From Flavobacteriales bacterium (GTDB lineage: Bacteria; Bacteroidota; Bacteroidia; Flavobacteriales_D; Sanyastnellaceae): a stretch of 45,170 bases of DNA. Shown piece after piece: positions 7,203 through 44,934 of the stretch. Both the position numbers and the translations under genes were made by a program. The notes under the pieces were generated by a model that worked only from the letters and a program-made list of their open reading frames with translations, made no database searches and was not told the DNA's origin. The DNA lies in the NCBI GenBank assembly GCA_015665315.1, contig JADFAK010000082.1, positions 1 through 45,170 on the forward strand. The letters run 5' to 3'. How positions within the stretch are numbered: the stretch's first letter is position 1; every line of letters starts with the position of its first letter.

Positions 7203-7748
7203 ATGATAGAACTGAGGGAGATAATCGAAGGCTGTAAGCGAAAAGATCGAAGGCATCAGGATGAACTGTACCGGAGATACTCTTCCATGTTATTCGGATT
7301 ATGTCTGCGATACACCAAAAGCCGAGAAGAGGCAGAGGATGTTCTACAAGAAGGGATGGTGAAGATTTTTAAAAGTGTCGGAACGTACAGCATGACAAAT
7401 TCGTTTGAAGGCTGGATGAGACGAATAGTGATAAACACGGCGATTACACATTACCGTAAGAACCTGAAGCACGCTTACCAAGAAGATATTGACGATACAC
7501 CTCAAACGAAATACAAAGAGGTGGACAATTACGATAGCGACTTCACACAAAAGGAACTCCTAGGCGCGATTAACAATTTGCCGAATGGTTACAGAATGGT
7601 TTTTAACATGTATGTGGTCGAGGGATACAAACACAAAGAAATCGCAGAAATGCTGAAGATTGACATAAACACATCGAAATCACAGCTTTCACGCGCTAAG
7701 AAATTTCTCCAACGAGAGTTGGAGCATCTGAGTAAGATTAATATGTAA
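7203..7748 (+). CDS. ECF-type RNA polymerase sigma factor
   Basis: A 181-residue sigma-70 family protein with region 2 (LYRRYSSMLFGLCLRYTKS, then EEAEDVLQEGMVKIF and GWMRRIVINTAI) and region 4 (GYRMVFNMYVVEGYKHKEIA, then INTSKSQLSRAKKFLQREL). Regions 1 and 3 are absent, as expected for ECF factors. It recruits RNA polymerase to a specific promoter set. A single-pass membrane protein follows 4 bp downstream, then an outer-membrane barrel, so the three probably form an operon in which the membrane protein may act as regulator. No classical zinc-binding anti-sigma motif is present next door. Confidence 0.93.
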   Translation: MIELREIIEGCKRKDRRHQDELYRRYSSMLFGLCLRYTKSREEAEDVLQEGMVKIFKSVGTYSMTNSFEGWMRRIVINTAITHYRKNLKHAYQEDIDDTPQTKYKEVDNYDSDFTQKELLGAINNLPNGYRMVFNMYVVEGYKHKEIAEMLKIDINTSKSQLSRAKKFLQRELEHLSKINM

Positions 7749-9724: not shown

Positions 9725-10822
9725 ATGTCTACATTTACTTGTAACTCAGCGTTAAGCAGAACAGTGAAGAAAATTTCTCTCATAATAGCACCATTTTTCT
9801 TGGTGGGTCAGGCCTTTGGACAGATTAGCAATGCTAGTTTCGAAGATCATACGGGCTTGCCTTCTTCAACGGGTGAATATCAAAAATGCAACGGTTGGGG
9901 AAATGCTGGAAGCAATGTCGGAAGTCCAGATTACTACCATTATGCGGGTTCGCTAGCTGGTGATATTCCTGAAACTCCAGTAGCCATGGTCAATGCATGG
10001 GATGGAAGTGCCGTCATGGGCATGACTGTTTGCGGAAATGAACACACCAATTATCGCGAGTATATTTCAAATGAACTTTCAGCACCACTTGAAGTTGGAA
10101 GCCAATACGTGGTCACGTTTAGGATCACGAATGGTGACTTGACCAATGTGTCAATGGCCGGTTTGGCCGTGAGTGACATAGGTGTTTACTTTTCTACTCA
10201 GGCGCAACAACAAGTGGACAATGAACCACTTATCGTGTCGCCTCAGTTTACCATGGAATCTGTTTTTTACAGCAAGGAATGGAAACTTGTTCGCTTTGTT
10301 TTTGAGGCCAATCAACCGTTTGAGCATATGACGGTTGGTCTTTTTGGGGATGATGGCACCAAAACATTTGAAGTGGTTGAAGGCAACCCACAATTTGCCT
10401 ATTATTTCTTCGACGACTTTTTTATTCAGAAGATTGAAGAGCCATACGAAGGTAGCCAGGTCTTTCACATCGACGGGGAAAAAGGGAATGACCAAGATTC
10501 GGTCATCCAAGGTGGAAGTGATGATGCAGAAGGAAATGTATTCTTCATTCCCAATGCGTTTACCCCCAACAATGACGGGGATAACGATGTTTTCAAGCCA
10601 GTTTCTCCGAGCAATGAAAAGTACCACTTTGAGGTATTCAGCCGCTGGGGAGAACTTATGTTCAGTACCAAAGATCCCGACTTGGGCTGGGATGGTAAAT
10701 TCGCCAGTCAGCTTGCCGAGCCAGGTGTATATGTGTGGCGTGTTTCCTACCACGAAACAGTCGAAGAAGATCTACCTTCAAAAGAAAAGCAAATTCACGG
10801 CACTGTGAATCTCTTGCGTTAA
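9725..10822 (+). CDS. Secreted protein with gliding-motility C-terminal (T9SS type B sorting) domain
   Basis: A 365-residue exported protein. It has a basic N-terminal extension and signal peptide ending near LVGQAFGQ, then a lectin-like beta domain beginning ISNASFEDHTG (about 37-240), and a CHU_C-type C-terminal domain at about 275-365 (FIPNAFTPNNDGDNDVF, FSRWGELMFS, GWDGKF, PGVYVWRV). That domain is the type B signal read by the type IX secretion system. The N-terminal domain resembles those of Bacteroidota surface proteins that begin with N-x-S/G-F-E, but I cannot name a ligand. bshC follows 22 bp later with its own promoter-like box. Confidence 0.85.
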   Translation: MSTFTCNSALSRTVKKISLIIAPFFLVGQAFGQISNASFEDHTGLPSSTGEYQKCNGWGNAGSNVGSPDYYHYAGSLAGDIPETPVAMVNAWDGSAVMGMTVCGNEHTNYREYISNELSAPLEVGSQYVVTFRITNGDLTNVSMAGLAVSDIGVYFSTQAQQQVDNEPLIVSPQFTMESVFYSKEWKLVRFVFEANQPFEHMTVGLFGDDGTKTFEVVEGNPQFAYYFFDDFFIQKIEEPYEGSQVFHIDGEKGNDQDSVIQGGSDDAEGNVFFIPNAFTPNNDGDNDVFKPVSPSNEKYHFEVFSRWGELMFSTKDPDLGWDGKFASQLAEPGVYVWRVSYHETVEEDLPSKEKQIHGTVNLLR

Positions 10823-15947: not shown

Positions 15948-16307
15948 TTATTCAGTTTCACAATTTCCGACACAGAAAGGGACTTCTGCACCTTCTTCGA
16001 AATTACGAATGATCTTCACTTGAGCACCGTCAACCAAATTTAGATTTTCGAAGTTTCCTTCAAAACCATCATTTGTGACTATCTGAACTTTAATTCCAGT
16101 TAGAACTCGATTTTGATTGAATTCCGGTTGATATTTGAAGTTGATCCCTTGTTCCTTGAGCGACTCATGCATTTCCCAAAGCTGCTCTCGGCTAGTTTCG
16201 TTTGAGATTGTAAGATCGATGTTCTCCTGACTTTGAGCGACAACGTCTTGTGAGATCATCGTAGCACCCAGTGCAAGAAAAGCTGCAAAAAATAGTTTCT
16301 TCATCAT
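15948..16307 (-). CDS. Small exported protein of unknown function
   Basis: A 119-residue protein with a signal peptide (MMKKLFFAAFLALGATMISQ, cleavage probably after VVAQ). The mature part contains a pattern (SREQLWEMHESLKEQGINFK then VLTGIKVQI) like the C-terminal repeat found in Bacteroidota M56/BlaR-type peptidases and related secreted proteins, where 'D/E-L-x-x-x-x-x-L-K-x-x-G-I-x-F' precedes a beta strand. The end is acidic with two cysteines (FCVGNCETE) that may form a disulfide. It stands alone behind a well-formed promoter. The M56-like resemblance is from memory and weak. Confidence 0.72.
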   Translation of the reverse strand: MMKKLFFAAFLALGATMISQDVVAQSQENIDLTISNETSREQLWEMHESLKEQGINFKYQPEFNQNRVLTGIKVQIVTNDGFEGNFENLNLVDGAQVKIIRNFEEGAEVPFCVGNCETE

Positions 16308-16332
16308 GGCCTTTAAGGGTTGTTTAATCTTG

Positions 16333-16362
16333 TAAATATACGTTTAGTGGTGCAATTGTCAA
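16333..16362 (-). promoter_or_regulatory. Bacteroidota-type promoter (-33 TTG, -7 TATATTTA)
   Basis: Reading leftward, TTG at 16362-16360 is separated by 19 nt from TATATTTA at 16340-16333 (one mismatch to TAnnTTTG). The box lies 25 nt before the ATG at 16307. Both elements and the spacing fit the phylum consensus. Confidence 0.65.
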
Positions 16363-16460
16363 ACTCCACTTATATATAGAGTACATTTTACTGGAAAAAG
16401 TTGCTTGGCCTGTTACTTTTTTTTGGTCCTGCATTTAAGGGGAAACCAAAAATCAATAAG

Positions 16461-18029
16461 ATGGCAGAAAGCAATTTATCACCCAGACAAAAAATGATAG
16501 GTATGATGTACCTGGTATTGACCGCCATGCTGGCACTGAATGTACAGCGCGAAATACTGGATGCATTTGTAGTCATTGAAGACGGAACCGCAGCTAGTTT
16601 GAAGTCGCTCGAAAAGAGAAATAACTCGCTGTATTCCGAGTTTAAATTTGCGCACGGACTTGATCCCGAGAAAACAGGGATTTATTGGAATGGAGCCAAT
16701 GCGTTGCAGGAGGAATCCAATTTCTTGGTCACAAGCATCGACAGTTTGAAATCGGCAATAATCGCCGCGACGGAAAGAATTGAACCCGAGCAAGCTGATA
16801 CCATTTCGCTTTGCTACCTGGAAAAAATTGACCAATACAATGACGCCACCAGGATTCTTGCTGGAGAAAAGGAAGATGCTTCCACTGGGGCTGCTCATCA
16901 CCTGAGAAATCAGATCGAATCATTTGCCAGACAGGTCAATACAACTTTGCAACAATTGAAGTTAGATACGCTTTCAATGCCTTTTGATTTCAGGGATAGA
17001 ATGGTGGAGGATAGAATGGTCAACTGGGAAATGCGGACTTTCTATGAAATCCCCATGGCTGCCTGCGTGGCCATCTTGACGAAGCTTCAGAACGACGTAC
17101 GTACGATTGAATACAATGCAGTGAGCCAAATGCTTTCTGCAGTGGATGTCGACGATATTCCCGTCGATACGGTAATTGCTCGAGTTGTTCCGAGAAGTCA
17201 GTACATCATTCTAGGCGAAACCTACGAATCAGATATTTTCTTGAGTGCATACAATAGCACAACACAGCCTGAAATAAATTTGAATGGATCCGGTGACCTT
17301 GTTGTGGAAGATGGCATGGGCAAACTTTCTTTCAAGCCCACAGGCCAAGGGCAATTTGATTATAACGGAGAAATTGTCATCCATGATAAAAAGGGGAATC
17401 CGAGAAAATTTCCTTTTGAATCTTCCTACACCGTAGTTAAACCAAGTGCATCTGTTTCTCCCACCAAGATGAATGTCCTTTACGTCGGACCTAAAAATCC
17501 ACTTTCGATCTCTGTGCCTGGAGTTCCAGATGAAAAGGTGAGCGTGACTATCACTGGCGGGAATCGAATACGCAAGATAGGACCAGGAATGTATGAGGCC
17601 GACATGGTTTTGGGGAGTCCGCGAGATATCGACGTTATCGTCAAAGCCGAAATGGATGGCGGACTCAAAGAAATGGCAAAAACGTCCTTTCGGGTCAAGA
17701 AATTGCCAACGCCCTATGTTCGATTTGGACCTATAAAAAACAGTGGTAAAATGGATGCGTTCGATTTGATCAATAATTCACTTATTGCTGAGTATGATCA
17801 AGATTTCGTGTTTCCCTTACCGCTGACGGTTGTGGAATTCAATATGGTAATAGACAAGGGAGAAGTCGTTGAAAGACATATTGTAGGGCGCAAAGCAAGA
17901 AGCGAAGACCAAGCATTGCTAAACTCACTCAGGCCAGGAGCTATTGTGTACTTGGAAGATATACTTGTTCGAGACGCCAGTGGAAGAGTGCTTCCGACCA
18001 ACAACATAAAAATTACAGTCAAGAACTAG
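16461..18029 (+). CDS. gldM: Gliding motility / type IX secretion protein GldM (orphan copy)
   Basis: A 522-residue GldM, close to the 513 of Flavobacterium johnsoniae. The N-terminus MAESNLSPRQKMIGMMYLVL contains Arg9, equivalent to the residue that faces a buried Glu of GldL in the GldLM motor; one membrane helix follows (IGMMYLVLTAMLALNV). The periplasmic part ends in the typical last domain (LPTPYVRFGPIKNSGKM ... RSEDQALLNSLRPGAIVYLE). GldM couples the inner-membrane motor to the T9SS. The frame extends to 16401, but the ATG at 16461 gives the family start. gldK, gldL and gldN, which normally flank gldM, are absent: dnaN is downstream and a small exported protein upstream. This may be a second copy or a displaced gene. 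Confidence 0.88.
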   Translation: MAESNLSPRQKMIGMMYLVLTAMLALNVQREILDAFVVIEDGTAASLKSLEKRNNSLYSEFKFAHGLDPEKTGIYWNGANALQEESNFLVTSIDSLKSAIIAATERIEPEQADTISLCYLEKIDQYNDATRILAGEKEDASTGAAHHLRNQIESFARQVNTTLQQLKLDTLSMPFDFRDRMVEDRMVNWEMRTFYEIPMAACVAILTKLQNDVRTIEYNAVSQMLSAVDVDDIPVDTVIARVVPRSQYIILGETYESDIFLSAYNSTTQPEINLNGSGDLVVEDGMGKLSFKPTGQGQFDYNGEIVIHDKKGNPRKFPFESSYTVVKPSASVSPTKMNVLYVGPKNPLSISVPGVPDEKVSVTITGGNRIRKIGPGMYEADMVLGSPRDIDVIVKAEMDGGLKEMAKTSFRVKKLPTPYVRFGPIKNSGKMDAFDLINNSLIAEYDQDFVFPLPLTVVEFNMVIDKGEVVERHIVGRKARSEDQALLNSLRPGAIVYLEDILVRDASGRVLPTNNIKITVKN

Positions 18030-18167: not shown

Positions 18168-19289
18168 ATGAAATTTCTCGTAAATAGTCAATCACTGCTT
18201 AAGCAGTTACAGTTGTTGAGTGGTGTTCTTAGTTCGAACAATACCTTACCAATCTTAGATAATTATCTGTTCGAAATCAACGGAAAGGAGCTGACACTGT
18301 CGGCTTCCGATCTTGAGACCACCATGACCACAAGAATCATGATTGAGGCCAAGGAAGATGGTATTATTGCCATTCCGGCCAAAATGCTTCTTGACACGGT
18401 AAAGTCTTTCCCTGAGCAACCCTTGACTTTCACTATTGATCCAAAGACATTCGGAGTTGAGATTTCTTCCGATTTTGGAAAGTACAAGTTGAGCGGTCAG
18501 AATGGAGAAGAGTTTCCAAAAGCCCCACAGTTGGATGCTTCCAGTCATGTGGAAATGGGCGGCGATGTATTGAGTACTGCTATCAATAGCACTCTTTTCG
18601 CGGCTGGAAACGATGAACTTCGGCCGGTGATGTCAGGAATCTTCTTTGAGTTGAACGAGGAGTTTATTCGCTTTGTGGCAACCGATGCCCATAGATTAGT
18701 GCGTTATACACGTGGTGATGCCAAGGCGAGCGCTGGAGCTTCCTTTATTGTACCGAAGAAGCCTTTGAATCTATTGAAGAGCATCGCTACAAGTTCAGAT
18801 TCACCCATTAAGATTGAGTTTACCTCGTCAAATGCGATGTTCTCTTTTGATAATGTGGTTCTATCTTGTCGCTTGATTGAAGGGAAGTTTCCAAATTACC
18901 AGGCTGTAATTCCTGAAGAGAATCCGAATAAGCTGACCATTGGTCGATTGGATTTATTGCAGTCGATACGCCGTGTGTCCATTTTTGCCAATAAGACAAC
19001 ACATCAAGTGCGCTTGAAGATCAACGGTTCTGAGTTGACGATTTCTGCGGAGGACCTTGATTTTGCCAATGAGGCGAACGAGCGACTTACTTGCAGCTAT
19101 GTTGGAGAAGACATGGAAATAGGATTTAATTCACGTTTCTTGGCCGACATGCTATCGAACATCAATTCAGAGAATGTTGTGCTGGAAATGAGTGCATCGA
19201 ATAGAGCGGGTATCATTGTTCCAGCTGAGCAAGTGCTTGAATCGGAAGATATTCTAATGCTCGTGATGCCAGTTATGTTGAACAACTAA
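18168..19289 (+). CDS. dnaN: DNA polymerase III subunit beta (sliding clamp)
   Basis: A 373-residue DnaN with the three clamp domains. The N-terminus MKFLVNSQSLLKQLQLLSGV and segments LPILDNYLFEI, FVATDAHRLVRY, RLIEGKFPNYQAVIPE and the C-terminal LVMPVMLNN are standard. The clamp encircles DNA and holds the replicative polymerase and repair factors through its hydrophobic groove and C-terminus. It is not next to dnaA here, as is common in Bacteroidota. A strong terminator follows 64 bp after the stop. Confidence 0.98.
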   Translation: MKFLVNSQSLLKQLQLLSGVLSSNNTLPILDNYLFEINGKELTLSASDLETTMTTRIMIEAKEDGIIAIPAKMLLDTVKSFPEQPLTFTIDPKTFGVEISSDFGKYKLSGQNGEEFPKAPQLDASSHVEMGGDVLSTAINSTLFAAGNDELRPVMSGIFFELNEEFIRFVATDAHRLVRYTRGDAKASAGASFIVPKKPLNLLKSIATSSDSPIKIEFTSSNAMFSFDNVVLSCRLIEGKFPNYQAVIPEENPNKLTIGRLDLLQSIRRVSIFANKTTHQVRLKINGSELTISAEDLDFANEANERLTCSYVGEDMEIGFNSRFLADMLSNINSENVVLEMSASNRAGIIVPAEQVLESEDILMLVMPVMLNN

Positions 19290-19418: not shown

Positions 19419-20156
19419 CTAGGAATCTTTGGGCTCGTCCGCGTCTTGTTCGGGATTCTTTTTGGACAAGTATTCGTAGAATATTTCGGAATCCTCAGAT
19501 GTGTCGGATAGAAATGTCCAATCTCCTTCTGCAATTCGTTTTTCTAACTCAGCCTGTTTTTCCTCGTCAATTTCATACTGGTACTTGCGCCTAGGAGCGC
19601 CTTTTTCTCGGTAATGCCAAGCGAAGATTAGTCCGCCTATCGCACCCGATAAATGTCCTTCCCATGATAGATTTGGGTCGACTGGAAAAACGTACCAAAC
19701 AATGCTTCCGTAGTAGAAGGCAACAACCAATGCAATGCGCAAGAGGTTTTCGTTTTTACGGAATATTCCGCTGAAGAAGAGAAAACTGGCGAGGCCGTAT
19801 ATGAGCAGACTAGCGCCTATATGGTTTCCTTCACGTCCCCAAAACCAGAGAAGGGTTCCGCCCAAAAAGAGGATCCACAAGAACACCTTGACCGCCACTT
19901 CCCGATAGAAAAAGAAAAGAAAAGAGTTCAACACAAAAAAGGATAAGGTGTTGTGCGTGATATGTTTGAGATCACCGTGCAAAAAATGCATGCTCACAAT
20001 TCCTATCAAACCTTCCATCTTCCGAGGTTTGAGCCCCCATCGGCTAAATCGGATGTCACCGAGGGCCTCTGCGCCAAAAAGCATCCAGCACACTGCCAAA
20101 AAGGAAATCGTGATGAATAGTGTCGTATAAAGTCGTCCTCTAGAGGCTGTGTTCAT
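19419..20156 (-). CDS. Rhomboid-family intramembrane serine protease
   Basis: A 245-residue membrane protein with about six hydrophobic segments between residues 10 and 190 and a charged cytoplasmic C-terminal tail (from about 195, rich in Glu, Lys and Asp). MHFLHGDLKHITHN is the conserved segment before TM2. The catalytic Ser is in HIGASLLIYGLASF (Ser116) and the catalytic His in WEGHLSGAIGGLIF (His168). Canonical rhomboids have GxSG; here the residue after Ser is Leu. Substrates are unknown. It is divergent from the small exported protein at 20231. Confidence 0.87.
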   Translation of the reverse strand: MNTASRGRLYTTLFITISFLAVCWMLFGAEALGDIRFSRWGLKPRKMEGLIGIVSMHFLHGDLKHITHNTLSFFVLNSFLFFFYREVAVKVFLWILFLGGTLLWFWGREGNHIGASLLIYGLASFLFFSGIFRKNENLLRIALVVAFYYGSIVWYVFPVDPNLSWEGHLSGAIGGLIFAWHYREKGAPRRKYQYEIDEEKQAELEKRIAEGDWTFLSDTSEDSEIFYEYLSKKNPEQDADEPKDS

Positions 20157-28536: not shown

Positions 28537-30186
28537 ATGAATAAATTATACTTTTTAGCAACAGCCCTTGTCGCTCTGACATTGGGAATGAACGGACAAG
28601 AAATCAATCTTCCTCCTAGTTGGGGTGTCCATAGTAGTCTGATCACCGTTCCCGATGCCGTGGAATTGGAAACTTTCGATCACGATGAATTATACGCAAC
28701 GGATTTGTTGGTAGAAGAAGAGACTGGAAAAACGATCAACGGTCGTTTGGCATTTCAGGAAATCGACATGGACACCCATGGTGTTTGGAATGAGCTAGCT
28801 GATGGGTCGAAGATTTGGCTGTTCAAATACAAGACATCGGGAGCACTTGCTACAAACGTTTATTTTTCGAACTATAACCTGCCTGTAGGAGGGGAGCTTT
28901 ATATCTGGAGCGCCGACAAGTCTTACGCAGAAGGTCCCTATGATTGGAAGGAGAACAACGATCACGGTAAGATGGGAACAGCAGAAGTTTTTTCTGATGA
29001 AGCTGTACTTGAGTATTACCAACCTGCTGATGTAGTGGGTGAAGCGCAATTGACGACTCATGGATTTGGGCATTACTATCGTTACGTGTATGATTTTACT
29101 GCCGATTGGAATCGCGGTGGGTCAGATCCGTGTGAAGTTGATGTTAACTGCCCTGAAGGAGCAGGTTGGGAAGGTCCACGAGATGGAGTTGTGAGATTGA
29201 GGATTGTCGACGGAGGAAACATTGGACTATGTTCAGGATCCATGGTAAACACTACGGCGAGAGATTGTCGGCAATACATGCTTACTGCACTTCACTGTGC
29301 CGATGGGGTTAGCACTTCTGACTTTGGCTTGCTTCAGGTAAGATTCAATTATGAGAGAGCCAACTGCGGAACTGGCGGAGGATCAAGCACGCACCAGCGT
29401 ACTGGAGTTATCTTCTTAGCCGATAGTAATGATGGCGGTGGAAATTCAGGTTCTGATTTCCTTTTGGTTGAGATTGAGGATGAGATTTCTGCTTCTTGGG
29501 ATCCATTTTATTCAGGATGGGATGCCAGTGGAACAGGTAGCAATGAAGGCGTGAGCATTCATCATCCTGCCGGTGACTTGAAGAAGATATCCACTTATGA
29601 TAGCAACTTGTCTTCGGAATGGTGGGGAGCTCCTGGCTCGCACTGGGGAGTAAATTGGGTTGAAACAGAGACCAATCACGGTGTAACTGAAGGTGGATCG
29701 TCTGGAAGTCCGATTTTCAATAAGGACAAGCAAATCATTGGAACACTCACAGGAGGTTCGTCTTTCTGCAATTCGCCAAATGCTCCAGATTTTTACGGAA
29801 AAATGAGCTATCACTGGGATGGCAACTCTAATCCAACAGATGACTTGAGTGTGTTCTTGGATCCGGATAATACAGGTGAAGAAGAGATTTTTGGTAACTA
29901 CTCTCCTGATTGCGACCAGGCTTGGGTTTCCTTGGCTGAAGTTGAATTTAGCGATGTGGGAGTGTATCCAAATCCAGCCTCAGATCTTGTTCAAATTGAA
30001 TTGAAGAAGTCATTCGAACTCGATTTTGTAACGATTTACGATGCATTGGGACACTTAGTGGTTCGAAAGGACCTAAGCAAAGGACAAAAGCAGATCTCGA
30101 TGGGCGGACTTACCGAAGGAATTTACTTCTTGACGTTTAATTTTGCCAACGGTCAACAGGTTACCAAGAAGGTAACGAAGTTGTAA
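28537..30186 (+). CDS. Secreted trypsin-like serine protease (lysyl endopeptidase-like) with T9SS type A domain
   Basis: A 549-residue exported protease. A signal peptide (KLYFLATALVALTLGMNG) is followed by a beta-rich N-terminal domain (about 30-200). The trypsin-like domain holds His253 in LTALHCAD, Asp307 in NSGSDFLLVEIED and Ser389 in GGSSGSP, with disulfide-forming Cys residues placed as in Achromobacter-type lysyl endopeptidases. Residues from about 475 form a type A sorting domain (VGVYPNPASDLVQIEL, FVTIYDALGHLVVRKDL, GIYFLTFNFANGQQVTKK). It is therefore likely exported through T9SS to the surface or medium. Cleavage specificity for Lys is not proven by sequence. Confidence 0.92.
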   Translation: MNKLYFLATALVALTLGMNGQEINLPPSWGVHSSLITVPDAVELETFDHDELYATDLLVEEETGKTINGRLAFQEIDMDTHGVWNELADGSKIWLFKYKTSGALATNVYFSNYNLPVGGELYIWSADKSYAEGPYDWKENNDHGKMGTAEVFSDEAVLEYYQPADVVGEAQLTTHGFGHYYRYVYDFTADWNRGGSDPCEVDVNCPEGAGWEGPRDGVVRLRIVDGGNIGLCSGSMVNTTARDCRQYMLTALHCADGVSTSDFGLLQVRFNYERANCGTGGGSSTHQRTGVIFLADSNDGGGNSGSDFLLVEIEDEISASWDPFYSGWDASGTGSNEGVSIHHPAGDLKKISTYDSNLSSEWWGAPGSHWGVNWVETETNHGVTEGGSSGSPIFNKDKQIIGTLTGGSSFCNSPNAPDFYGKMSYHWDGNSNPTDDLSVFLDPDNTGEEEIFGNYSPDCDQAWVSLAEVEFSDVGVYPNPASDLVQIELKKSFELDFVTIYDALGHLVVRKDLSKGQKQISMGGLTEGIYFLTFNFANGQQVTKKVTKL

Positions 30187-31747: not shown

Positions 31748-34700
31748 ATGAACATGAAATCACGTTTACTAATTTCTTTTGTACTGGCTTTTGCGGCCAC
31801 AAATCTCTTTGCACAATATTCATATCTAGGCTCATGGAATTCCAGTGGCGTTCCCAATTATTTGGAGCTTACGGATGACGATATAGACCTCCAATTGTTG
31901 GAGGACATCAACTTGTCTTTGCCTGAACGTAAACCTGTTCCTACTTATCATCCCGAATATCTCACGGATGTCAATGATTTGGATATTCTGTTGTCGGAAG
32001 ATGCAGATGTCTTCGTCACCTTTGTCCACGAAGGGGCTGGATGGAAAAATTCCCTGGCCTTTTATACTTACGATCAAAACGATCCACCGGAGACTGTTGG
32101 CGAAATAGGAACGCTGACATTGGTGTTTCCAAACTTCTCCTACCAAGGTGGTGGGGGCGGAATGCACTCTGGAAATAAAGTGCTTCTTGGAAGTTTTACC
32201 GCAGGAACGGGGATTGGATTTGCGCTGATTACACGAGGGTGGAACGGCGGTTCGCAAACAGTACAGAATAACTACTACACGGTATATTCCAATCCTGATT
32301 TTAATCCAGAAAGTTCACCTTCTTTGCGACAACATGCCGTGACTTTGAGCGATGCTTCAAGAGAACAAATCCTAATTGGATTTGAAGATATCAATCGAGA
32401 ATGGGGTGGCTGCGACAATGATTTTAACGATGCCATTTTTTACGTGTCTTCAACCCCTTTTTCAGCCATTGACATTGAAAATATGCCAGTGGTGGCCAAC
32501 GCACAAGTGAGTTGTAATTCGGTGCCGGAGAATTTGCAGACGGTCGATGTGAAACTGTATAAGTCGACCTTGACTTGGGATTCTTTGGATGATGCCGACC
32601 AGTATAGAATTCGATTCAGGGAATGGGGAACCGACGACCCTTGGCAGTACAGAAATGCTGCGGCGGACACCTTCTTAGTATTGGGTTCGATTACAGGCGA
32701 TGAATTGGATCCAGCGACTTATTACGAGTGGCAAGTAGCGAGTACTTGTACAGGTGTGCAAACTTCGAATAGCGTGAAGCACGTTTTTCAAACCCTGCCT
32801 TATTGCGAAATGCCGACTGGGTATAGCGCGAGTAATATTACCTCCACCGGGGCGCGTGTGTCTTGGTCTAGTGTGGTTCAGGCCGACACCTATTTGCTGC
32901 GTTATTTCAAGGATGGAGATTCTTCATTTGAGTGGCGAAATTCGCAGGGATATACCTATTATGACATCGTAGGTCTTCAACCAAACACACAGTATTATTG
33001 GTCAGTAGGCTCAAGATGCGACGAGTTTGACTCATGCATGGCTCCCTATAGCGCTCATTATACCTTCACAACTGATGAAGAGGGAAGGGCCAAGGAAATT
33101 GATGAGCCAATTTGCGTTCCGCGTGGGAATTACCTGTCTTTTGACATGACGGAATCCTTGATCGCCACTGCTGGGGAGAAGAGCATTGTTCTTTCGGAGG
33201 ATCTGAATGGTGACAGATCTCCCGATTTATTGGTAGGGACGCCTTATTCCAGCACAAAGGTGAGCGTGTATTACAACAATGAACCACAGGGGACCGGATT
33301 CTCAGGGCCTTACGATTTTGATCTGGGTACCAGTTATACAGCTCTCAGTTTGGGAGAGATAAATGGCGATGGGAAGCAAGATTTAATTGCTACGATAGGT
33401 ACCTCGAATGAAGTGAGAATTTTTAAGAATTCAGGCACAACATTCGGGTTGTGGAAGACTTTAGAGACCGATCTATTTCCATCTTCATGTGTCGCAACCG
33501 ACCTGGATGAAGATGGAGAAGCTGAGCTTGTGATCACCAATTCGGCGACCGATAAAACTCACCTCTACTCACGAAAGGAAAGTTCGTTGGATGAGGAAAA
33601 GGAAGAGCAGGGCAGCGATTGGAAGGAGTTCATGACTTTTTATACTGGCGAGGGTCCCAATCATATTGTAACGAAAGACCTAGATGGCAATCAGAAAAAT
33701 GACCTGTGCATCGTCAATGACTTGGCTGAAAGTGTAGTGTTGGTTTTCAACGGAAACGAGGCAGATAGCACCTCTTATATCAAATCAATTTACGAACCCG
33801 GACATCCACCTGTTGGTGTTGCTTTCCACGACTTTAATGCCGACGGACTGGTAGATATGGCGGTAATCACGAAAGAGAATCCAACACTCACGATTTATCA
33901 AAACATTGGAGGGGAGGACAATCTCATGTTTGAAGAAGTCCTTGAGATCACGCTTGAAAGCGAACCTATAGCTATTCAAGTGGGGCACTTTTCTGAGGAG
34001 GGCTTGGCCGATATTGTTATAGCCTCTAAGGACAATGCTAGTTTGACTCTTTTTCAGGCACAAGGCCAAATGGAGATAGCCATGAGTGAGGGGGTGGGCT
34101 ATTCAGGCAATGGAAGCGTCAAAGGAATAGTATGCGCCGATTTTAATTTGGACGGCAAAGATGATATTGCTGCCACTTTAGTCGGAGGTGGAGTCGATAT
34201 CCACTACAGCGGCACGGAAGGAGATGGAATGAACGTCAAGATTCTTGATCAACAAAGTGATGATATAGTCTTCTACCGCGCTCAACCTACTTTTGTGCCA
34301 GAGACGATTCAATGGCAAATTGGCGACGGAATTTCTTTCGTTGATTTAGCCGACGGTGAGGGTGTCACTGGATGTCAAAGCGAGAACATTCGAATTAGTA
34401 AAGACGAGTTTGCTTTTCAAGGCACGCATTTGAGATGTGTAGTAAAAGATTCGGATTGTGGTAATTCACATGTTTCTGAAGCCCTCAAATTGTTCGAAGC
34501 TGTCGAAGATCACGTCTTTGAGATTTTCCCCAATCCAGCTCACAATGTTATTCAAGTGCGGTACAATGATCATGACATCACCACTGCAGATGTGATTCTG
34601 GCGAGCGCCAAAGGGGCCATTGTATGGCAACAAACATTTGACGATTTGAAGGGCGAGTTGAACTGTTCAATTCCCCTGAATGAAATTAGCCAAGGAGTTT

Positions 34701-34759
34701 ATATTCTTCAAATTCAATCGAATGAAACAACCGTTTCCGAGCGGGTCATAAAATACTAG
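31748..34759 (+). CDS. Large secreted protein: DUF4114, fibronectin III-like and FG-GAP repeats, T9SS type A
   Basis: A 1003-residue exported protein with a signal peptide (LLISFVLAFAATNLFAQ). A DUF4114-type domain occupies about residues 85-240 (FVTFVHEGAGWKNSLAFYTY, FEDINREWGGCDNDFNDAIF). Two fibronectin III-like modules follow at about 265-440 (LTWDSLDDADQYRIRF and ARVSWSSVVQADTYLLRY). About seven FG-GAP/VCBS-type repeats with calcium-loop motifs lie at about 475-830 (DLNGDRSPDLLVG, INGDGKQDLIAT, DLDEDGEAELVIT, DFNADGLVDMAVI, DFNLDGKDDIAAT). A type A sorting domain ends the protein (FEIFPNPAHNVIQVRYN). Together they suggest a calcium-stabilised adhesin or sugar-binding surface protein. Binding partner unknown. 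Confidence 0.88.
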   Translation: MNMKSRLLISFVLAFAATNLFAQYSYLGSWNSSGVPNYLELTDDDIDLQLLEDINLSLPERKPVPTYHPEYLTDVNDLDILLSEDADVFVTFVHEGAGWKNSLAFYTYDQNDPPETVGEIGTLTLVFPNFSYQGGGGGMHSGNKVLLGSFTAGTGIGFALITRGWNGGSQTVQNNYYTVYSNPDFNPESSPSLRQHAVTLSDASREQILIGFEDINREWGGCDNDFNDAIFYVSSTPFSAIDIENMPVVANAQVSCNSVPENLQTVDVKLYKSTLTWDSLDDADQYRIRFREWGTDDPWQYRNAAADTFLVLGSITGDELDPATYYEWQVASTCTGVQTSNSVKHVFQTLPYCEMPTGYSASNITSTGARVSWSSVVQADTYLLRYFKDGDSSFEWRNSQGYTYYDIVGLQPNTQYYWSVGSRCDEFDSCMAPYSAHYTFTTDEEGRAKEIDEPICVPRGNYLSFDMTESLIATAGEKSIVLSEDLNGDRSPDLLVGTPYSSTKVSVYYNNEPQGTGFSGPYDFDLGTSYTALSLGEINGDGKQDLIATIGTSNEVRIFKNSGTTFGLWKTLETDLFPSSCVATDLDEDGEAELVITNSATDKTHLYSRKESSLDEEKEEQGSDWKEFMTFYTGEGPNHIVTKDLDGNQKNDLCIVNDLAESVVLVFNGNEADSTSYIKSIYEPGHPPVGVAFHDFNADGLVDMAVITKENPTLTIYQNIGGEDNLMFEEVLEITLESEPIAIQVGHFSEEGLADIVIASKDNASLTLFQAQGQMEIAMSEGVGYSGNGSVKGIVCADFNLDGKDDIAATLVGGGVDIHYSGTEGDGMNVKILDQQSDDIVFYRAQPTFVPETIQWQIGDGISFVDLADGEGVTGCQSENIRISKDEFAFQGTHLRCVVKDSDCGNSHVSEALKLFEAVEDHVFEIFPNPAHNVIQVRYNDHDITTADVILASAKGAIVWQQTFDDLKGELNCSIPLNEISQGVYILQIQSNETTVSERVIKY

Positions 34760-42921: not shown

Positions 42922-42930
42922 TTGACGATC

Positions 42931-43680
42931 ATGACACGATATATAAAACACACTTTATACACGACGGCAGTGATTGCCATGAGTCTAATGTCCAACAACG
43001 CCTTTGCCCAATGCAATGGCGGACATAGCACTGATCCAACCGATATGTGGCTTAGTTGCAGCGGACAAGCCAACCCAAATCCTGCCCGAGCGCAAGAACA
43101 TTGGATACTCTATGACTTGGCCAATTTGTACGCTATCAATGAGTCGGTCATTTGGAATTACAACGTACCTGGCGAAACCGATAGAGGGATTAAATCCATC
43201 GTGATTGATACATCGACCAATGGAAGTACTTGGAATGCCTGGGGATCGTATACAGTAGGAGAAGCTGCTGGTAACGAAACCTATGAAGGCGAAGTGGGTC
43301 CTGATTTCAATGGAATTGCGATTCGCTATATCCTGATTTCTGTAGTTGAAAACTGGGGCGATGCCGAGTGCAGTGGATATGCCGAGATAAAATTCAACGT
43401 AGGCCCAGGAGCAACAGCGGTCGAGGAACAAGTGGATCCTTCGATAGGTTTTTCAGCTTATCCAAGTCCGGCTAGTTCACTTCTAACCATAAACATGGAT
43501 GAATACCGAGGTGGCTACATCGACGTACTCAATGCTTCCGGGGAGATAGTTCTTTCACAGTCGGTTACAAGTGATCGCACCACAATCGGAATTAGCGACT
43601 TGGCCGAAGGAATGTACTTCGTTCGCGTGACCGATAGCGACGGATTAAGCGCCGTACAGCGGTTCACCGTGATGCGTTGA
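42931..43680 (+). CDS. Secreted discoidin-like protein with T9SS type A domain
   Basis: A 249-residue exported protein. A signal peptide (IKHTLYTTAVIAMSLMSNNA, cleavage after AFAQ) leads to a beta-sandwich of about 140 residues with F5/8-type (discoidin-like) features: YDLANLYAINESVIWNYNVP, GIKSIVIDTSTNGSTWNAWG and AIRYILISVVENWGDAECSG. The C-terminus is a type A sorting domain (FSAYPSPASSLLTINMDEYR, GMYFVRVTDSDGLSAVQRF). A TTG at 42922 opens the frame, but the ATG at 42931 is preferred. It is third in the DUF1800-DUF1501 unit and probably exported to the cell surface by T9SS. The ligand is unknown. Confidence 0.88.
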   Translation: MTRYIKHTLYTTAVIAMSLMSNNAFAQCNGGHSTDPTDMWLSCSGQANPNPARAQEHWILYDLANLYAINESVIWNYNVPGETDRGIKSIVIDTSTNGSTWNAWGSYTVGEAAGNETYEGEVGPDFNGIAIRYILISVVENWGDAECSGYAEIKFNVGPGATAVEEQVDPSIGFSAYPSPASSLLTINMDEYRGGYIDVLNASGEIVLSQSVTSDRTTIGISDLAEGMYFVRVTDSDGLSAVQRFTVMR

Positions 43681-43866: not shown

Positions 43867-44934
43867 TCAACGAAGCAGGAGTCGATGAATTTGTGTGTCC
43901 AAGTCGGTGCGAACCTTAACCAGATAAGTGCCAGCTGCCAGCGCGTCCAACTGAATGGGCACACTTCCGATATTTCGTGACCAATTGTGCTTCATAAGAA
44001 GTTGGCCTAGGTAATCAAATAGCTCGACCGAAACAATCTGGGCATTGGAACGAGCAAAAAGGATTCTGTCGTCGTTGGGATTTGGGTAGATCGAACTAGA
44101 CATTTGGCCTTGTGCCTTATAAATCAAAGAATAGAGACGAGATTCTGGCTCGGTTTCGACATCTTCCGTGAGGAGAAATTGATTTTCATCGAAAAAGCAG
44201 ATGCCTTCCAGTTTTTGTGCGTCGATGGCAAAATCTTCTCCTTGCATTTTGGTGACTGGATTGTAGGAAGATATGGAGCTGTCGGACACAAAGTAAATCA
44301 TGTTGTTGACGTGATCCAGTGCTGCTCCAGTGATTCGATTTTGGCGGGGCAAACTGTCAATTAGAGTTGCAACATGTGAACCCGAAGTGATAGGGAGGGT
44401 GTAATGTTTTGAGTGATTTGTGTTTCCGTGGTCTTTCGAAAAGAAGTGGATGTGCTGATTAAAAACGACCATGGCCTCGCAGTCGAAATTCGAGCTATTG
44501 TCGGGAAGCGGGTCAGGCTCCTGATCAGAATAAGAGTAATGAATCGTTTCAAAATTGAAAATCGTGTCCTGATTCATCTTGGATTCGAAGTCATCAATTC
44601 GATAAATGGTCAGGTCTGTCCGATAACTCAAGTTATTCCCAATGTCGCCAATAAAGAGTGTCCCGTATTCATCGAGTTGGAGTTCCTCCCAATCGACATT
44701 GGCAGCCCCAGAAATTTCGATCCGGTGAATGATGTCGCCCGACTCGCTTAGTTCGTACAAGGTGGCAGAATTGCCGCTATCACCAATCACAAATACGCGG
44801 GCATCGGTCGTTCGAATAATCCCCGATACTTCGAAAACCGTGGGGTCGATAAGACCCAGAAAATGCACATCGACCGATTGGGCCTTTCCAAAACAGAAGG
44901 AGCACAAAGACAGTATGAATAATAGTCCTTTCAA
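43867..44934 (-). CDS. Secreted beta-propeller-like protein with T9SS type A domain
   Basis: A 355-residue exported protein (signal MKGLLFILSLCSFCFGKAQS). The central part, about 25-275, has repeated strand units (VFEVSGIIRTTDARVFVIGD, GTLFIGDIGNNLSYRT, MIYFVSDSSISSYNP, LEGICFFDENQFLLTED) resembling SdiA-regulated/esterase-like propeller domains. A type A sorting domain forms the C-terminus (SIYPNPNDDRILFARSNAQI, AGTYLVKVRTDLDTQ). The start is TTG at 44934-44932, overlapping the stop of the upstream gene as TTGA, because no ATG gives a signal peptide. The pair is thus coupled. Function is not known. Confidence 0.84.
   Translation of the reverse strand: MKGLLFILSLCSFCFGKAQSVDVHFLGLIDPTVFEVSGIIRTTDARVFVIGDSGNSATLYELSESGDIIHRIEISGAANVDWEELQLDEYGTLFIGDIGNNLSYRTDLTIYRIDDFESKMNQDTIFNFETIHYSYSDQEPDPLPDNSSNFDCEAMVVFNQHIHFFSKDHGNTNHSKHYTLPITSGSHVATLIDSLPRQNRITGAALDHVNNMIYFVSDSSISSYNPVTKMQGEDFAIDAQKLEGICFFDENQFLLTEDVETEPESRLYSLIYKAQGQMSSSIYPNPNDDRILFARSNAQIVSVELFDYLGQLLMKHNWSRNIGSVPIQLDALAAGTYLVKVRTDLDTQIHRLLLR

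Follow-up and report, generated by a model that had tools for sequence, protein, structure and literature searches.

The window analysed here is the whole stretch of 45,170 nucleotides from a Flavobacteriales bacterium (contig JADFAK010000082.1). At 16461–18029 on the + strand, gldM2 encodes a second, orphan GldM of 522 amino acids with no internal stop codon. Its start was set at the ATG at 16461, which agrees with the start in relatives; the listed open reading frame opens earlier, at TTG 16401. The GldM/PorM model TIGR03517 scored 331 bits (curated cut-off 180) and covered residues 1–509. The membrane helix and its edges (residues 7–36; 16479–16568, +) contain Arg9, Tyr17, and Glu31 and are near-invariant in the seven members found in the window's family, with the modeled helix spanning residues 8–25. 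Four domains follow on the same strand: the helical D1 (residues 31–226; 16551–17138; PF12081, 104.4 bits), D2 (residues 229–327; 17145–17441; PF21601, 81.2 bits), D3 (residues 329–413; 17445–17699; PF21602, 72.5 bits), and the fast-changing tip D4 (residues 416–520; 17706–18020). D1–D3 are in canonical order and each exceeds its Pfam cut-off. D4 reached 23.1 bits with PF12080, slightly below the cut-off of 24.6, and a fold search nevertheless aligned it with the D3–D4 structure 6ey6 (TMt 0.71), which indicates that the fold of D4 is kept and its sequence is not. The AlphaFold2 model of GldM2, built from a 13-row alignment, has a mean pLDDT of 81.3 and a pTM of 0.45. With this model, the solved periplasmic structures of PorM and GldM ranked first (7cmg_A, E 4.3e-30; 6ey4, E 2.5e-23), and several GldLM/PorLM motor structures were among the top 50; the remaining rows beyond rank 12 were mostly unrelated Ig-like proteins. 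GldM2 is a complete GldM. A recent foreign origin of the gene was rejected on composition, as its G+C content is 0.441 and that of the window 0.443.

gldM2 sits between F17, a gene on the − strand (15948–16307) for a small exported protein with a C-terminal twin-cysteine tail, and dnaN (18168–19289, +; TIGR00663, 280.9 bits). A gap of 153 bases (16308–16460) separates the divergent genes F17 and gldM2. The earlier note had described a full-length GldM of 522 amino acids with the conserved Arg9 between a small exported protein and dnaN, and the translation, the TIGR03517 score, the Pfam matches to D1–D3, and the neighbours all confirm this description. F17 adjoins gldM2 in 7/7 loci of the family, dnaN lies downstream of gldM2 in all seven bearers, and 72 of the 114 family genomes hold an F17 match. 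dnaN lies beside F17 in 11 of 13 loci lacking gldM2, is one gene off in another, and is absent from the stretch in the last. F17 was rejected as a specific partner of GldM2 because it usually stands beside dnaN also where gldM2 is absent; F17 is retained by position. The window F17 matches no Pfam family, and 20 of 22 distinct proteins among its relatives have two cysteines near the C-terminus. This tail recalls the twin-cysteine tails of SprF and PorG, which are reported to form disulfides with GldK (PMC12635249). A Rhomboid-family membrane protein (19419–20156, −) beside dnaN is conserved in 13/13 compared dnaN regions.

The genome is 99.27% complete, consists of 219 contigs, and has a listed contamination of 0.54%. 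Two GldM matches were found in the whole genome, namely the window gene and a copy on contig C8, GldM1, which is 35% identical. The gene order on C8 is porP-like, gldK, gldL, gldM, gldN, and the run is intact. The sole GldL and GldN matches of the genome both lie on C8 beside GldM1; no gldK, gldL, or gldN adjoins gldM2, and gldM2 does not sit between gldL and gldN. The intact run on C8 indicates that gldM2 is not operon debris, and the position of the single GldL match means that gldM2 has no model-detectable gldL of its own. A search of this genome for a second, divergent GldL found none at E 0.001. The GldL of the genome, read by eye, keeps two glutamates matching E49 and E59; published work reports a requirement for E49 in secretion and for E59 solely in movement (PMC8986121). 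Searched for GldJ, the same genome gave a single match of 369.5 bits, below the cut-off of 458.2.

The placement of this gldM outside any gldKLMN operon, as claimed in the earlier note, was thus borne out. That note had left two alternatives: the second, specialised GldM gained support, and the only copy after operon break-up fell, since the C8 operon has its own GldM. A gldKLN set lacking gldM was also looked for by genome search, and the set that was found, on C8, includes gldM. The same note had counted six T9SS cargo proteins in the window and taken the system to be active. NCBIfam sorting-domain models scored five open reading frames above the cut-off (9725–10822, 28537–30186, 31748–34759, 42922–43680, and 43867–44934) in a scan covering 30 of the 43 non-overlapping open reading frames, and a sixth cargo protein may exist among the other 13. 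These cargo genes show the presence of the system and do not show its activity.

A profile of the seven GldM2 proteins gave matches above 870 bits in 7 of 114 family genomes, with the next best at 386 bits. Across 245 genomes of the order, eight exceeded 500 bits, these being the same seven and G308 (536 bits), and the next scored 422. In a phylum sample of 392 genomes, no match other than the window gene exceeded 428 bits, and only the window's genome had two matches at 1e-60, a count that covers orphan-clade candidates only because many ordinary GldMs miss this threshold. The F17–gldM2–dnaN position is kept in the seven family genomes, which span four genera. Among the best 80 of 571 relatives in a named genome collection, the fetched DNA lacked gldK, gldL, and gldN in eight, contained gldL only in one (L064), and included at least gldN in the other 71. 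Two of the eight belong to the window's family, and the six outside it are L052, L053, L054, L057, L058, and L060. L064, with gldL behind gldM, groups among operon GldMs and was excluded from the orphan count. Four family genomes that are at least 90% complete (G015, G085, G091, and G092) gave no GldM match at 1e-10, through loss or assembly gaps.

A quick tree of 76 GldMs placed 14 orphans, seven family GldM2 proteins and seven from other Bacteroidota, in one group (SH-aLRT 86). A careful tree of 49 rows, which left out 27 rows including G031, the second copies of other families, and the long-branch G280, recovered 13 orphans as monophyletic (100/100). In the careful tree, the orphan clade joins Bacteroidales-like operon GldMs (98/97) and not the operon GldMs of its own order. 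A GldM tree had been suggested in the earlier note, and the orphans form a clade apart from the operon GldMs in it. A recent duplication of GldM1 as the source of GldM2 was rejected by both trees. All 14 orphan-bearing genomes also hold a full GldM beside gldL. GldL loci above the cut-off number one per genome in the seven orphan-bearing genomes outside the family, and within the family the genome-wide GldL count covers the window's genome. The sub-cut-off GldL matches in G701, G702, and G704 belong to another type of protein. L255 (1051–2325) and the similar L257 (1228–2364), together with matches in G702 and G705, encode two GldL-like membrane hairpins with an FKxMHWPGA motif; in the L255 protein, the hairpins are followed by a stretch matching the GldM D1 model, and a PadR-type regulator adjoins it, which may represent a family of GldL–GldM-D1 fusions. 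A tree of dnaN and two neighbours contains a ten-genome clade of seven genomes with and three without gldM2, with one unresolved fork. This fits one gain of gldM2 followed by loss, without proving it.

Residues 7–36 correspond to the segment that inserts into GldL in the known GldLM structures, and we take Arg9 to be the residue that meets the GldL glutamate. Arg9 and Tyr17 are invariant in 13/13 orphans. The membrane segment has 24 columns with a conservation of at least 80% in 61 other GldMs. In the orphans, 19 of these also reach 80% and there are no losses; the same test gave 14/14 kept columns in D3 and 5/8 in D4. Upstream of D4, the GldM2 genes of G012 and G031 have a dN of 0.015 and a dS of 0.296, and this indicates purifying selection on gldM2 outside D4. 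At the level of sequence comparison, these results show that GldM2 is an old paralog kept under selection. The near-invariant helix and the single genomic GldL fit a swapping of GldM2 into the GldL motor.

The conservation of the tip is reversed between the two proteins. The mean identities of D1–D4 among the seven family GldM2 proteins are 0.43, 0.51, 0.53, and 0.38, whereas those of GldM1 from the same seven genomes are 0.50, 0.63, 0.66, and 0.71. D4 identity is lower than that of D1–D3 in 21/21 GldM2 pairs and higher in 21/21 GldM1 pairs, the 21 pairs being drawn from seven genomes and not independent. The Pfam scores, which are independent of our own alignment, agree with this pattern. D4 scored 23–48 bits in six GldM2 proteins versus 63–69 in five family GldM1 proteins, while D1 scored 90–111 versus 86–96, D2 61–83 versus 48–60, and D3 70–76, slightly below 78–89. 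With profiles built from operon rows, which include GldM1, GldM2 scored lower in all domains and most so in D4 (50–80 versus 144–157). In the G016/G033 pair, the dN of GldM2 is 0.184 in D4 (dS 2.14) versus 0.105 before D4, and that of GldM1 is 0.063 in D4 versus 0.094 before it. A raised D4 is not general among operon GldMs: the Bacteroidales-like ones have the same identity of 0.35 in D4 and D1, and the canonical operon pair G310/G045 has 0.40 in D4 versus 0.70 in D1–D3, showing that D4 varies in operon GldMs too. As judged from conservation, these data show that the GldM2 tip has been freed from the constraint that holds the GldM1 tip. Short exported or lipoprotein-like proteins with D3–D4 only and no membrane helix were also seen (L045 8519–9205, −; L046 8538–9323, −; L047 8606–9253, +; G701:C7:1732–2298).

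A replacement of D4 was found between G012 and G031, two species of the same genus. In the gldM2–dnaN stretch of this pair, mismatches occupy 132 of 337 positions (39%) inside one tract and 148 of 2483 (6%) outside it (Fisher p 1.5e-56, for one event with boundaries chosen by fit). The best-fit tract opens at codon 420 and stops 6 bases short of the gldM2 end, so that it covers hardly more than D4, and the 120 bases that follow contain 1 mismatch. Fourfold sites differ at 23/34 in the tract versus 48/198 before it, which indicates that the tract was replaced and is not merely fast-changing. In the same pair, the D4 of GldM1 is identical in protein sequence, GldN is 99% identical, and GldL is 98% identical. 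The mismatch pattern in the alignment shows that D4 alone was replaced as a unit by recombination, once, in this pair. Read with the D4 identities above, the nearly unchanged GldN indirectly suggests that it does not hold the GldM2 D4. No such tract was found in G016/G033, where fourfold sites differ at 15/32 in D4 versus 88/148 before it. Silent D4 cassettes were rejected as a source, as a search of G012, G031, and G081 with the G012 D4 DNA hit nothing beyond that copy itself, its G031 counterpart, and short chance matches. The gap upstream of gldM2 is likewise divergent between G012 and G031 (L035 9441–9614 versus L036), and both contain repeat-like open frames.

Outside the family, the neighbours of the orphan vary. 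PorP/SprF and CHU_C (type B cargo) genes stand beside it in 3/7 loci (L052, L054, and L206), and in L052 a type B gene, PorP/SprF, an OmpA-type gene, and gldM are consecutive on a single strand. The type B gene closest to gldM2 in the window is 5.6 kb away. An ECF sigma factor and a small membrane protein also adjoin the orphan in 3/7 outside loci (L054, L058, and L206), in the order gldM–sigma–membrane protein in two and sigma–membrane protein–gldM in one. These sigma factors are 45–57% identical to each other versus 27–29% to another sigma factor of L206. An amidase gene lies immediately upstream of the orphan in L057 and L058 (41% identical). These recurrent neighbours, counted in the seven outside loci, are a lead.

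Given that GldM2 keeps its GldL end intact while its tip is freed, its best reading is a second shaft for another load. We put the chance at about even that GldM2 is a working second shaft of the proton-driven GldL–GldM motor, sharing GldL and having its tip tuned to another, changing partner. The sharing of GldL and the identity of the tip partner are what we infer. GldM2 would enter the same GldL pentamer, either as a homodimer or mixed with GldM1, and its tip would engage another load, or the GldK–GldN ring in another way, with the partner changing between species. PorM D4 alone is reported to be sufficient for PorN binding in a two-hybrid assay (PMC5790014), and in a recent model of weak confidence the tip of PorM sits in a cleft formed by PorN copies, where the contact surface is weakly conserved, a point against the present reading (PMC12635249). 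Candidate partners, at the weakest step of the scheme, may be PorP/SprF-type outer-membrane carriers or another track element, a choice prompted by the PorP/SprF and type B genes next to the orphan in three of the outside loci. The carriers would come first, since an interaction of PorP/SprF with GldM/PorM has been reported (PMC9127263) and cognate PorP/SprF shuttles are described for type B cargo proteins (PMC12618676).

GldM2 may instead be a spare or tuning subunit that forms the same GldL5–GldM2 complexes and meets the same GldK–GldN ring, with D4 varying under the weaker constraint of a second copy. We regard this as somewhat unlikely, although several observations agree with it: the whole fold is kept, D4 included; purifying selection still acts on D4 in G016/G033 (dN 0.184, dS 2.14); F. 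johnsoniae GldN and its paralog GldO are described as partly redundant (PMC9127263); and in other families, too, fetched stretches with an additional GldM hold one gldL. However, D1, D2, and the membrane segment are not weakened, so that relaxation would be confined to the ring-facing tip. In addition, the exchange of D4 came with a GldN that remained 99% identical, and long retention across several Bacteroidota lineages is not obvious for a spare. The sigma factor and the small membrane protein, perhaps an anti-sigma factor, would suit a GldM2 that replaces GldM1 under envelope stress and acts on the ordinary ring under their control. The pair is found in three of the seven outside loci but beside 0/7 family copies (tblastn), the sigma-like open reading frame of the window (7203–7748) is 9 kb off and 21–23% identical, and the D4 pattern would be left unexplained, which makes such a switch decidedly unlikely. 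An intact membrane helix with a divergent tip would also act as a brake or decoy that draws GldL from the working motor and drives nothing; a full set of D1–D4 and a selected D4 would then be needless, and we consider this very improbable. Operon break-up with GldM2 as the only GldM can practically be dismissed, as no supporting point was found for it and an intact operon with its own GldM lies in the same genome. C8 hardly looks like a foreign contig either, with similar G+C contents (window 0.443, C8 stretch 0.434) and a genome contamination of 0.54%.

The reading of GldM2 as a second shaft bears on how one GldL–GldM motor can power secretion as well as gliding. A genome that pairs a single GldL with two GldMs of different tips offers a natural experiment on tip coupling. 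As a tentative extension, GldM in general might be an exchangeable shaft: a single GldL ring would drive a number of shafts, and D4 would act as an interchangeable coupling, exchanged between lineages to suit different outer-membrane partners, such as PorP/SprF carriers or other elements of the track. In that case, GldM2 would be the dedicated shaft of a type B subset or of a second track. NCBIfam names both copies PorM/GldM; tallies of T9SS core genes therefore do not tell them apart.

GldM2 is like operon GldM/PorM in length, membrane helix, four periplasmic domains, and fold. In contrast, GldM2 has no adjoining gldL or gldN, belongs to a separate clade, has a D4 far from the family norm, and is extra to the normal copy in all 14 genomes. 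Second GldMs also occur in G168 (L208), G310 (L213), G038 (L211), G045 (L210), and G170 (L215); the fetched stretches, to which the GldL count is limited, hold at most one gldL each. They resemble GldM2 as second GldMs with no second gldL there, whereas some lie directly behind gldN, others alone, and all are outside the orphan clade. They branch within the GldMs of their own families in the 76-row tree, which indicates separate origins. In the G168/G170 pair, the second copy has an identity of 0.42 in D4 versus 0.60 in D1–D3, and the operon copy 0.77 versus 0.73. Between the two copies within a genome, D4 differs more than D1–D3 in 4/4 genomes. Extra shafts with altered tips thus seem to have arisen on more than one occasion, and the orphan clade is the oldest among the extra GldMs and apart from the operon. 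No paper on an orphan or second GldM was found in the open-access literature searched.

Among known systems, GldN and GldO of F. johnsoniae are likewise paralogs of one T9SS core part and are described as partly redundant (PMC9127263). Unlike GldM2, they are parts of the ring and not of the shaft, and they are adjacent in the operon. MotAB resembles the proposed sharing of GldL, in that one ion-driven ring serves several inner parts, as GldL may do for GldM2. Similarly, several TonB proteins are served by one ExbBD. Both systems belong to other families, and the added parts are well known there, in contrast to GldM2. In an annotation survey, annotated MotB proteins outnumber MotA, and such a surplus is said to be absent or slightly reversed for GldLM (PMC9389320). 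If GldM2 is a second shaft, the T9SS motor would have a layout of one ring and several shafts, which that survey reports as absent for GldLM.
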